From NCBI RefSeq assembly GCF_001027925.1, contig NZ_LECT01000031.1, forward strand, positions 248,001 through 312,000: a stretch of 64,000 nucleotides of DNA, read 5' to 3'. The notes under the pieces are model-generated. The model had not been told where the DNA came from. It saw nothing but the letters and a program-made list of their open reading frames with translations, and searched no databases. Every line of letters begins with the position of its first letter. The stretch's first letter is position 1. This DNA is from Rhodopirellula islandica. GTDB lineage: Bacteria > Planctomycetota > Planctomycetia > Pirellulales > Pirellulaceae. Both the position numbers and the translations under genes were made by a program. Positions 16,735 through 21,690 of this stretch are shown here, in pieces.

Positions 16735-17904
16735 TTGAACAAACCTGCTCGCTCCAAACCTCACGTGGCGCTGATGGTCGAAACCGCGACTGTCTACGGA
16801 CGTGAAGTGCTGTCTGGAATCATGCGTTTCATGCGAACGCAAGAAGATTGGTCGGTCTTCCTCGAACAACGGGACCTCATGACGTCGCCACCGGCCTGGC
16901 TGAACGATTGGCAGGGCGACGGGATCATCTCGCGAGGATCCACCAATGAAATGATCGAGGCCGCCGTCCAGCGGAACATTCCGGTCATCGAATTGAACGA
17001 TCGCAGCGAAGTCGACAAGGCGCACGTCCGCAGCGATGACGCCAAAATTGGTGAAATGGCCGCCCGCCACCTGATGGAACGCGGATTCCAACACTTCGGG
17101 TTCTGCGGCTTTGATTTCGAAGCCTGGTCGCATCGACGCCAAGAAGCGTTCACCAAAACGGTCCAACAAGAAGGATGCCAGTGCGATTCGTTCAACTCGC
17201 CCTGGATGAATCTGGCCCGACCCTGGGAGGAGGACCAACAATCCATCTCGGATTGGCTGCAAGCGTTGCCCAAACCCTGCGGAATCTTCACCTGCAACGA
17301 CCTTCGCGGCCAACATGTCCTGGCGGTTTGCTCCACCCTGGAACTGACCGTCCCCGAAGAAGTTGCCGTGATCGGGGCCGACAACGACGAACTGCTTTGC
17401 CAATTCTGCCAACCGCCCCTGTCCAGCGTGATCCCCAACGCGGAAGCGGTCGGCTTCCTCGCCGCGGAACGTTTGTCTCGCCAAATGAAGGGCGAATCGC
17501 ACCACGAATCACAGCAAGTGGTGGCGCCCACTGGAGTCGCAACCCGACTTTCCACCGATGTCGTTGCCATCGACCACCCCGAAGTTGCCTCGGCGCTGGC
17601 TTATATCCGGCAACACGCTTGCGAAGGCCTGACGGTCGACGAAGTCCTGCAAAACGTTGCGGTCAGCCGCAGCACCCTCGAACGACAACTCCGTCGCTAC
17701 CTGGGACGCACCCCGCAGCAGGAAATCCGCAACGTCCAACTCAAACGCGTCCGAGAATTGCTGGTCACCACCGAAATGGCCGCCGAACAAATCGCCTATC
17801 GGGCAGGCTTCGATCACCCGGAATACATGCACTACGTGTTCAAACGTGACCTGGGTTTGACCCCTGGGCAATACCGGCAAAGTGTCCGCGGGCAGGATGG
17901 TTGA
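16735..17904 (+). CDS. XylR-like AraC-family transcriptional regulator
   Basis: 389 residues. The N-terminal 270 residues form a LacI/periplasmic-binding-type sensor (ETATVYGREVLSGIMRF, later IFTCNDLRGQHVL and VAVIGADNDELLCQF). The C-terminal 100 residues are an AraC double helix-turn-helix: VDEVLQNVAVSRSTLERQL, then IAYRAGFDHPEYMHYVFKR. This architecture is that of XylR-type sugar regulators in planctomycetes and enterobacteria. The start is a TTG preceded by AAGGA at six to seven bases, which decides it. The ligand is probably a sugar, and the nearby epimerase/symporter pair is a candidate target, but this is inference. Confidence 0.88.
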   Translation: MNKPARSKPHVALMVETATVYGREVLSGIMRFMRTQEDWSVFLEQRDLMTSPPAWLNDWQGDGIISRGSTNEMIEAAVQRNIPVIELNDRSEVDKAHVRSDDAKIGEMAARHLMERGFQHFGFCGFDFEAWSHRRQEAFTKTVQQEGCQCDSFNSPWMNLARPWEEDQQSISDWLQALPKPCGIFTCNDLRGQHVLAVCSTLELTVPEEVAVIGADNDELLCQFCQPPLSSVIPNAEAVGFLAAERLSRQMKGESHHESQQVVAPTGVATRLSTDVVAIDHPEVASALAYIRQHACEGLTVDEVLQNVAVSRSTLERQLRRYLGRTPQQEIRNVQLKRVRELLVTTEMAAEQIAYRAGFDHPEYMHYVFKRDLGLTPGQYRQSVRGQDG

Positions 17905-18019: not shown

Positions 18020-18217
18020 GATTCGACCCCGATCGCTCCCGGTCCAGCCTTCCCTCCCCTGAATTGCTGCCTGCATTCAATGGAAACGGACAGCTTGTCC
18101 GCGGGACTGATCGCCAACGGTGCCGAATCAATGGTGGATCTCGCCGTCTAAAATCCATTTTGTCTTCAGCGCCCGACCATTACTTCTCCCTGCACACTGA
18201 TTCTCAGGATGTTGACC

Positions 18218-19129
18218 GTGAATCGCCACTTCTTCTCTCGTCGCACCCCAGTTTCGTTCTCCGGAATGACCTCTCTGATGTGCGTTGCCGCTCTCGGTTT
18301 CGCCGCCGCGGGACTTGCTTCGCCCTCCCAAGCCAATGCTGGTGGTGAAGAAACCGTCGTCAATGGCTTGTTCGAGGCCATGGAAGCCGGAACGGTCGAG
18401 GCCAAATTCATCCCTCAATCGTCTGCAAAAGCCAACTTGTTGGTCAAGAACCTGACTGACAAACCTCTGCACATCCACGTTCCCGCCGCCTTCGCTGGCG
18501 TTCCAGTTCTTGCTCAAGGCATGATGGGCGGCATGGGTGGTGGTATGGGCGGCGGCATGGGTGGTGGAATGGGAGGAGGCATGGGCGGAGGCATGGGTGG
18601 CGGTGGCGGCGGTCAAGCCATGGGCGGCGGCGGCGGCATGGGTGGTGGCATGGGCGGCGGCATGGGTGGTGGAATGGGCGGAGGCATGGGCGGCGGAATG
18701 GGTGGCTTCATGCGAGTCGCACCCGGACGCACGACCAAAATGGCTCTCAACACCGTTTGCCTGGAACATGGCAAACCTGAACCCAACGCCAAAATGAAAT
18801 ACACCATCGCACCACTCGACCAAGTCACCCAAGACCCTGCTGTGACGGCCTTGTGCGAAGCTCTGGGCAATGGACTCATCGCTCAAAACACCGCCCAAGC
18901 CGCAACTTGGCACCTGACCGACAAAATGTCATGGAGCGAACTGGCCGAGAAGAATCGCAAGGAAAGCCAGTACACCGGCAACGAGCCTTACTTCACGTCC
19001 TTTGAGCTGCGTGCCGCCTCCAATGTCGTGGGCGAAGTCAAACGCATCGCTCAAAATCACCAGGACAAACTGGAGTCAGACGAGAAGACTCAAGGCGGCC
19101 TGACCTTGGACAACAACTACGGCAGCTGA
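18218..19129 (+). CDS. Secreted protein with a Gly-Met repeat tract
   Basis: About 303 residues from the GTG at 18218, which has AGGA eight bases upstream; the in-frame ATG at 18209 directly abuts that site. A signal peptide ends near SQANA. A short N-terminal domain follows (VEAKFIPQSSAKANLLVKN, then LHIHVPAAFAGVPV). Next is a tract of about 60 residues, repeats of GGGM with one QAM interruption. The C-terminal region of about 120 residues has two Cys (CLEHG, ALCEALGNG) and ends acidic. The N- and C-domains look like a surface-exposed beta fold with a flexible linker. I know no function. The gene is monocistronic, with a predicted promoter and a strong terminator. Confidence 0.8.
   Translation: MNRHFFSRRTPVSFSGMTSLMCVAALGFAAAGLASPSQANAGGEETVVNGLFEAMEAGTVEAKFIPQSSAKANLLVKNLTDKPLHIHVPAAFAGVPVLAQGMMGGMGGGMGGGMGGGMGGGMGGGMGGGGGGQAMGGGGGMGGGMGGGMGGGMGGGMGGGMGGFMRVAPGRTTKMALNTVCLEHGKPEPNAKMKYTIAPLDQVTQDPAVTALCEALGNGLIAQNTAQAATWHLTDKMSWSELAEKNRKESQYTGNEPYFTSFELRAASNVVGEVKRIAQNHQDKLESDEKTQGGLTLDNNYGS
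18524..18710 (+). repeat. Low-complexity GGC/ATG repeat inside the Gly-Met gene
   Basis: DNA repeat of about 12-base units (variants of ATGGGCGGCGGC) coding for (Met-Gly-Gly-Gly)n. Third-position differences between units (ggt, ggc, gga) show it is kept at protein level rather than being a fresh slippage expansion. Confidence 0.8.
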
Positions 19130-19188
19130 GGATCCTTGCCACAGAGTGATCGCCAAGAACGCAATCACCACAGAGAAAACCAAACGAT

Positions 19189-19226
19189 ACCTGCGAGGAC
19201 CTCACGGTCCTCGCAGGTGTTTTTTT
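19189..19226 (+). terminator. Rho-independent terminator of the Gly-Met gene
   Basis: Perfect 12-pair stem ACCTGCGAGGAC (19189-19200) with GTCCTCGCAGGT (19207-19218), six-base loop, followed by G and seven T. It lies 60 bases after the stop and also separates this gene from convergent prfB. Confidence 0.92.
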
Positions 19227-19267: not shown

Positions 19268-20393
19268 TCAGTCGTCGTCGGAATGGACGGCTTCCGTCTT
19301 CCCCGCCTTCAAACGCAGGAACGAGTCGAAGAACCCCTGCAGTTCACTGCCGTCGAGCACACTGTTGAAGTTGCCGACGTAATGCCCCGTCCGAGCGTCC
19401 TTGACGCGTTGATCGGGGTGCAAGAAGTAATTGCGAATCTGACTCCCGAAACCGGTTCTTGCCTGAGTCTCGTACTTCTTGGCTTCCTCCGCTTCACGGC
19501 GTTCTTCCTCGATTCGTGCCAACTTGGCACGCAGCATCTTCCAGGCGGTGTCCCGGTTTTGGTGCTGACTCCGTTGGTTCTGGCATTGCACAACCGTGTT
19601 GGTGGGAATGTGTGTCAACCGAATCGCACTGTCCGTCTTATTGACGTGCTGACCACCTGCTCCACTGGCCCGATACGTGTCCTCGCGAACATCCTTCTTT
19701 TCGACGTTCACCTCGAACGAATCATCAATCTCAGGCGCAACACTCACGGCAGCAAAGCTCGTCTGGCGTTTGCTTTCGCTGTTGAATGGACTGATCCGAA
19801 CCAACCGGTGCATGCCTTCCTCCCCCTTGAGATAGCCATACGCCATCGGCCCCCGAACCGCGATCGAAGCATGGTTGATCCCCGCCTCCTCGTTTTCTTG
19901 ACGGTCCAGCAATTCGATTTTGTATTCCTGTCCCACCGCCCAAGCGGAGTACATCCGAAGCAGCATGTCGGCCCAGTCGTTCGCGTCCGTCCCGCCATCG
20001 CGAGCGTTGATGGTCACGATCGCACCCGCGGAATCATTCGGCCCGTTCAACAAAGCCTTCAATTCCAAGTCATCCAGGACGCCCTCCAGGCGATCGATCT
20101 CTGACCGAACCTCATCGACAATCGAATCATCGTCCTCTGCCATTTCGAAGAGGGCTTCCAAGTCCTCTGCAGAGGACTCAAGCTCATTCAACGGGGAGAC
20201 AATTCCTTTCAGCCCCTTGAGTTGCATCACGACTTTTTGAGCCGCTTCACTGTCATTCCAGAAATCGGGCGCCCCCATTTGGGCTTCGATCTTTTCGATC
20301 GCTTGGTTCTTGCCAGCGTGGTCAAAGAGAGTCCTGTAGCTGGACCAGGCGGCTGCGAATCGCTTGGCTGCGTTGCGTCAATTCAGCGTCCAT
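19268..20393 (-). CDS. prfB: Peptide chain release factor 2, expressed by +1 programmed frameshift
   Basis: RF2 recognises UAA and UGA stop codons in the ribosome. The gene has two overlapping frames. The first runs from the ATG at 20393 for 23 codons to an in-frame TGA (20322-20324) in the context CTT TGA C. The second continues in the +1 frame from GAC (20323-20321) to the stop at 19268. The joined protein is 374 residues, normal for RF2. The second frame carries the catalytic GGQ in YRASGAGGQHVNKTDS, and the tripeptide region fits SPF (ISPFNSESKRQTSF), the RF2 selectivity motif. Low RF2 favours the shift, giving autoregulation. Divergent from mnmA. Confidence 0.96.
20321..20327 (-). promoter_or_regulatory. 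Programmed +1 frameshift site of prfB
   Basis: Read on the minus strand: CTTTGAC, with codon 23 CTT (Leu), the TGA stop, then C. AGGA lies four bases upstream of CTT (CAGGACTCTCTT) and can act as the internal Shine-Dalgarno-like stimulator, as in E. coli prfB. The slip moves the ribosome from CTT to TTT so that GAC (Asp) is read next. Confidence 0.93.
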
Positions 20394-20490: not shown

Positions 20491-21690
20491 ATGTCTCGCG
20501 TGGTTCTCGCGATGAGTGGCGGCGTTGATTCCAGCGTCGCGGCCCACCTGTTGTTGCGTGACGGTCACGAGGTGATCGGAGTCTTCATGCGCCACGGCGA
20601 AGCATCCGCTGCCGCCTGCCGAATTGATTCCGACGAACCCCAAAACGCCAATCCCCTGAATCTTCCCGTGCTGGGCGAGTCCGCAGGTGGTAAACGAGCC
20701 GACCACAAACAGGGCTGCTGCAGCGCGACCGATGCCGCCGACGCTCGCCGGGTCGCGATGTCGATGGGGATCCCGTTTTACTCCCTCGACCTGCAAGAAG
20801 ACTTTCGCAAGATCGTGGACTATTTCGTCGACGATTACCTCGCCGCGCGAACACCCAATCCGTGCGTGAAGTGCAATCATTGGATCAAGTTCGGACGTTT
20901 GTTCGATTACGCCGATGGTGTCGACGCCGAGTTCGTCGCAACAGGGCACTACGCCCGAATGGTGCACGCCAACGGCCGCTCCGAACTGCACCGAGGCTTG
21001 GACGGTCACAAGGATCAATCCTACGCTCTGTTTGGCATCGACCCAGCCCGCTTGCCCCGCATGATGCTGCCCGTTGGCGATTTCACCAAACCTGAAATTC
21101 GCGACATGGCGACCTCGCTCGGATTAGGTGTGTCAGACAAAAAGGACAGCCAGGAAATCTGCTTCGTCACGCAGGGTCACCACAGCGATTTTGTAAAGTC
21201 CCGACGCCCGGAAATGGTCGGCGCAACCGCCGGCGAAATCGTGACCACCAACGGCAAGGTGGTCGGCGAGCACAACGGCTTCGAAGCCTTCACCATTGGC
21301 CAACGCAAACGACTCGGCGTCGCCATGGGCGAGCCTCACTTTGTGATCCGCATCGAACCAGACACCCGGCGCGTCGTGATCGGGCGATCAGAAGAGCTGC
21401 TGCGTCCAGGGTTGGTCGCCGATCAATGCAATTGGCTTGTGACACCGGAAGAGCTTGCGGAGGCCACATCAGTTGGCATCCAAATCCGCTACAACGGGCA
21501 ACCTCACCCCGGGCGAGTTGAGATCGACGCATCCGATCCAACCCAAATGAAAGTGATGTTTGACGAACCACAATCCGCCGTCGCACCAGGCCAAGCCGCC
21601 GTCGTCTACGATGGCGAACGCGTCCTCGGCGGAGGCTGGATCACCCACGCCATCGATCATGTAGCCGACGGAGCCCCTCCGTCAGTCTGA
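20491..21690 (+). CDS. mnmA: tRNA-specific 2-thiouridylase
   Basis: 399 residues. MnmA puts sulfur on U34 of Glu, Gln and Lys tRNAs, using ATP and a persulfide. The PP-loop SGGVDSS is at residues 9-15. The two catalytic cysteines are in NPCVKCNHWIKF and in DSQEICFVTQ, and GHYARM and KDQSYALF are family-typical. Compared with E. coli there is an insertion of about 30 residues after residue 40, rich in Asn, Gly and Lys, before CCSATDAADARRVA. The start at 20491 leads straight into the PP-loop strand; 18 in-frame residues upstream are not needed. It is divergent from prfB across 97 bases. Confidence 0.95.
   Translation: MSRVVLAMSGGVDSSVAAHLLLRDGHEVIGVFMRHGEASAAACRIDSDEPQNANPLNLPVLGESAGGKRADHKQGCCSATDAADARRVAMSMGIPFYSLDLQEDFRKIVDYFVDDYLAARTPNPCVKCNHWIKFGRLFDYADGVDAEFVATGHYARMVHANGRSELHRGLDGHKDQSYALFGIDPARLPRMMLPVGDFTKPEIRDMATSLGLGVSDKKDSQEICFVTQGHHSDFVKSRRPEMVGATAGEIVTTNGKVVGEHNGFEAFTIGQRKRLGVAMGEPHFVIRIEPDTRRVVIGRSEELLRPGLVADQCNWLVTPEELAEATSVGIQIRYNGQPHPGRVEIDASDPTQMKVMFDEPQSAVAPGQAAVVYDGERVLGGGWITHAIDHVADGAPPSV

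Follow-up and report, generated by a model that had tools for sequence, protein, structure and literature searches.

In Escherichia coli, prfB, the gene for peptide chain release factor 2 (RF2), is expressed through a +1 ribosomal frameshift: at an early UGA, either translation terminates or tRNA-Leu slips from CUU to UUU, and RF2 thereby limits its own synthesis. A Shine-Dalgarno (SD)-like element is a major stimulator of this shift. Naeem et al. (RNA, 2024) reportedly describe prfB sites with a weak or lost SD in many clades, including some Flavobacteriales. In the accessible text of a survey of 12,753 genomes, a premature stop is present in prfB in 64%, and an AGGGGG-like element 3 nucleotides before CTTT is termed hyper-conserved (PMC12421855). 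Here we analyze the prfB gene in a 64,000-nucleotide stretch (the window) of the planctomycete Rhodopirellula islandica (contig NZ_LECT01000031.1, positions 248,001 to 312,000), in which the shift site is retained next to a weak SD-like element.

The gene lies on the minus strand, which the earlier sequence-only reading of this DNA had left unstated. In frame 0 from ATG 20393, codons 21–24 are GAC TCT CTT TGA, with CTT at 20327–20325 and TGA at 20324–20322; a C follows at 20321. The TGA at codon 24 is the early in-frame stop of a type readable by RF2 (UGA or UAA), the rest of RF2 lies in the +1 frame, and when TGAC is read in a single step the product has 374 residues up to the terminal stop. 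As no ATG, GTG or TTG was found in the +1 frame upstream of ATG 20278, gene prediction restricted to the long frame would miss 38 residues. The site, its conservation and the restored protein are directly established, and they agree with the sequence-only reading in its codon and residue counts, in the 20278 start of the long frame, and in its proposal of an RF2 gene with a +1 programmed frameshift (early TGA, CTT_T, 3′ C and +1 continuation).

We conclude, with a probability of roughly 0.94, that the gene is a functional prfB controlled by the familiar autoregulatory +1 programmed frameshift. By analogy with E. coli prfB, ribosomes would initiate at ATG 20393 and arrive at CUU, codon 23, while UGA occupies the A site. 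With abundant RF2, termination would release a 23-residue peptide; when RF2 is scarce, tRNA-Leu would slip from CUU to UUU and GAC (Asp24) would be read next, yielding the 374-residue RF2. The frameshift itself is a textbook case, ordinary in kind. The locus adds a planctomycete in which this regulatory switch is confirmed, and it accounts for the 38-residue clipping of the protein by long-frame-only gene finding.

Table 1. Coordinates of prfB, its shift site and its divergent neighbor in the window
Feature	Position	Strand	Basis
prfB, peptide chain release factor 2, 374 residues after +1 shift at codon 23	19268..20393	-	sequence, TIGR00020, phmmer
Open reading frame (ORF) 1, frame 0, 23 codons then TGA	20322..20393	-	sequence; MDAE start common to 7 of 8 shift-less relatives
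Shifty stop CTT TGA C (CTT P-site codon, UGA stop, 3′ C)	20321..20327	-	sequence; identical in 72 of 80 relatives
TCT serine codon, E site at shift	20328..20330	-	serine codon ending in T, 71 of 73 frameshift rows
Weak SD-like element CAGGAC, AGGA core 20335-20332	20331..20336	-	anti-SD duplex energy -4.0 kcal/mol
Uninterrupted +1-frame ORF, 336 residues, without residues 1-38	19268..20278	-	ORF reading
mnmA (tRNA 2-thiouridine synthase), divergent neighbor	20491..21690	+	NCBIfam NF001138, E 1.2e-118

By its sequence, the window gene encodes RF2. The full protein scores 466.6 bits against the prfB family model TIGR00020 (cut-off 370) and falls below the cut-offs of the RF1 models; it contains the Pfam domains PCRF and RF-1. 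Its closest solved structures are RF2 chains (top phmmer E 2.5e-95), with the alignment running from residue 8 across the shift point.

The frame break is conserved among relatives. A genome scan confirmed 345 relatives, of which the best 80 were kept on the strength of the protein encoded downstream, without regard to the shift site; the nearest, Rhodopirellula europaea, is 96% identical. Comparison of the 16-mers of all 80 places CTTTGAC at the same codon in 72, which, in relatives picked independently of the site, is not chance. The remaining eight (L011, L013, L014, L018, L023, L024, L025 and L041), each read individually, carry RF2 in a single frame. The sequence-only reading had proposed that related genomes with an uninterrupted single frame would refute the shift. 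Such relatives do exist, but since they encode a homologous N terminus in frame, we read the eight as lineage-specific losses of the switch, which support residues 1–38 rather than initiation at 20278. On a quickly built RF2 tree of 85 rows (81 family members and 4 outgroup), at least four changes separate kept from lost shifts, and the group of Stieleria and Roseiconus may have undergone two losses, or one loss and a regain. Relatives with and without the switch in one family form matched pairs for asking why it is lost.

Two of the shift-less relatives merit comment. L011 (isolate CA13) has GGAGACTCTCTTGAC where its relatives have GGAGACTCTCTTTGAC, a difference of one T that makes the frame continuous; this difference (around 540–560) could mean that autoregulation was lost recently, or that the assembly is wrong here. 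L024, labelled Rhodopirellula baltica strain BR-MGV, has an RF2 only 80% identical to that of the window and no frameshift, and it groups with the Roseiconus and Stieleria tagensis rows; its label may be wrong.

The site extends well beyond the family. All genomes in a sample of 195 from the phylum had an RF2-family match, 190 of them above the cut-off, and 110 were read: the 30 best-scoring loci and 80 picked by kinship and family, rather than a random draw. The shift site is present in 97 of these 110, and the 13 without it have an uninterrupted N terminus. Variants of CTTTGAC occur as CTTTAAC (L085 and L086), CTTTGAG (L107 and L167), CTTTGAA (L143) and CTTTGAT (L150). In L085 and L086, which belong to one genus, CTT TAA C takes the place of CTT TGA C and SD-like pairing is almost nil, at -0.9 kcal/mol.

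Compared with E. coli prfB (AGGGGG UAU CUU UGA C), the window has the same CUU_U shifty codon and the same 3′ C, but the E-site codon is UCU rather than UAU, and the upstream element differs. The sequence-only reading had described the exact E. coli context with AGGA just upstream; this holds for CTT-TGA-C, whereas the AGGA belongs to a weak SD-like element. No AGGGGG- or AGGAGG-like sequence stands about 3 nucleotides before CTT: the window reads CAGGAC-TCT where the E. coli record (L209) reads AGGGGG-TAT, and the predicted pairing with the anti-SD is -4.0 versus -10.7 kcal/mol. Duplex energies were computed with the anti-SD seen at the 16S 3′ end of the window's own genome. Across the 73 frameshift rows (72 relatives plus the window), which share kinship so that the energies are descriptive figures, the mean is -4.62 kcal/mol; random 18-mers of the same loci give -3.46. 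Control sites average -10.49 kcal/mol (n = 11), the two weaker ones being Acetoanaerobium (-6.1) and Monoglobus (-6.5). These controls derive from 16 fetched records of 46 listed and represent two phyla only (Bacillota 5, Pseudomonadota 6); L206, L207, L208, L211 and L213 showed no site and were excluded from the mean. The 97 phylum sites average -5.79 kcal/mol, 12 of them at -9 or better. Judged by these predicted energies, a weak SD-like element is usual in the family and in a large part of the phylum sample. Some preference for pairing is nevertheless retained: when the 73 rows are recoded synonymously, the mean is -3.88 against the observed -4.62, and none of 200 shuffles was equally low, which argues that, at the level of these sequences, some selection for SD-like pairing remains.

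Two simple accounts of the weak element were rejected. A changed anti-SD is an unlikely cause, as the genome's one exact match to the 16S 3′-end pattern is GGATCACCTCCTTTCT, which is normal; we take this match to be the 16S end by its sequence, the stretch before it being masked. A clean planctomycete-only signature is ruled out by the two weak controls among 11 and by the 12 phylum sites at -9 or better. As at the sites that Naeem et al. are said to describe, the shift site is kept here with a weak or absent SD, in a different phylum.

The codons beside the site are constrained. Of the 73 frameshift rows, 71 have TCT or AGT immediately before CTT, where codon use in the same genes predicts 16.9 codons ending in T. 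Among the eight shift-less relatives, seven have a serine codon with C or G in third position. The constraint therefore acts on the site's nucleotides rather than on the protein sequence. A purine closes the third codon before CTT in 71 of the 73 rows (37.1 expected). At the second codon before CTT (20331–20333 in the window), GAC is favored over GAT in 68 of 73 (38.3 expected), a preference that SD pairing does not explain. The presence of CTT in 73 of 73 rows follows from their selection by CTTTGAC and is not evidence.

Could another stimulator substitute for the SD-like element? A real frameshift driven by a lineage-specific RNA structure would fit the room that the weak element leaves for compensation, and the GAC preference, which SD pairing leaves unexplained, speaks for it. 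The folding results are against it. A consensus fold made from 26 of these 73 rows has a negligible energy of -0.77 kcal/mol and 9 pairs, one of which shows changes on both sides, and the single-strand folds of six stretches are ordinary (z-scores -1.55 to +2.17). With no conserved structure found in these 26 rows, we rejected it as a substitute stimulator and consider this explanation improbable. A search of the whole window against Rfam gave no match at the gathering threshold.

Still less probable is that RF2 is made only from the internal ATG 20278, with the upstream short frame being a leader peptide or noise. The 336-residue frame does score above the RF2 family cut-off by itself, at 447.6 bits. 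However, a comparison with RF2 proteins, as the sequence-only reading had suggested for residues 1–38, bears out the longer product: residues 8–38 align with the RF2 of solved structures, and adding the N terminus lifts the family score by 19 bits. Moreover, the eight shift-less relatives keep their homologous N terminus in frame, seven of them starting MDAE like the window (L041 starts MEREVLDRAS), and CTTTGAC is retained at one codon in the 72 others. That the interruption reflects faulty sequencing or gene decay, as two frames one base apart might suggest, is scarcely credible given the same break in 72 of 80 relatives, the site in 97 of 110 phylum genomes, the codon constraint beside it, and the finding that, among four RF2-family matches in the genome, only the prfB of the window exceeds the cut-off.

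If the frameshift is real and the SD-like element weak, what drives the shift? In this lineage, stimulation by SD/anti-SD pairing would be weak, which probably leaves most of the effect to CUU_U, UGAC and the conserved serine codon in the E site. A broader proposal, which we offer tentatively and rate somewhat below even odds, is that the shift operates with little or no SD/anti-SD stimulation throughout Pirellulales and in a large part of the phylum at large, where few genes are reported to use an SD for initiation. It would then rely on CUU_U, UGAC and a serine codon (UCU or AGU) that is weakly held in the E site, and deletion of one base could abolish it. In the accessible part of PMC5397173, Planctomycetes, represented there by one species, are among the phyla with small fractions of SD genes; as far as that part of the source goes, a low fraction fits weak reliance on SD at prfB, without proving it.

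Several points weigh against our interpretation. The shift is absent from 8 of the 80 relatives and 13 of the 110 phylum genomes and is therefore dispensable. For the window taken alone, 60% of synonymous recodings pair as well as CAGGAC does, and because the rows are related, the codon counts are not independent. Against the view that little pairing suffices, Weeksellaceae, with an altered anti-SD, have no frameshift according to the accessible text of PMC8710568, which is taken there as consistent with a critical role for rRNA pairing. Likewise, the accessible text of PMC12421855 holds that, in E. coli, frameshifting drops when any of the elements is changed.

With respect to that survey, as far as its accessible text goes, the window shares the common early in-frame TGA, the CTTT and the C after the stop, but the hyper-conserved AGGGGG-like element is replaced by a weak one in the window and in much of the phylum sample. 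The weak element in this clade is at odds with the survey's statement, and its sites offer a natural test of how far the shift needs rRNA pairing. A search of the accessible literature, main texts only, found no paper treating planctomycete prfB sites. The word "planctomycete" is absent from the accessible texts of PMC12421855, PMC8710568 and PMC13245932 and from the first 300,000 characters of PMC5009743, and the sole planctomycete mention in the GeneTack paper is a table row.

The surroundings of prfB contain a few further features. For mnmA, the start codon given in Table 1 is our choice inside a longer ORF. Convergent with prfB is an ORF (18209–19129) for a predicted Gly/Met-rich protein of 306 residues, for which NCBIfam and Pfam gave no match at E 0.001; within it, at 18527–18706 (plus strand), lies a Gly/Met-rich tandem array of 12/24-base units resembling GGCATGGGTGGA. 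Between the two genes, at 19186–19221, is a terminator-like hairpin of 16 pairs with a T run on the plus strand. A scan for such hairpins gave 2 sites versus a shuffle average of 1.8, and only the stem length stands out. Farther from prfB, at 16735–17904 on the plus strand, is an XylR-like regulator in which a periplasmic-binding-protein domain is fused to an AraC-type helix-turn-helix.
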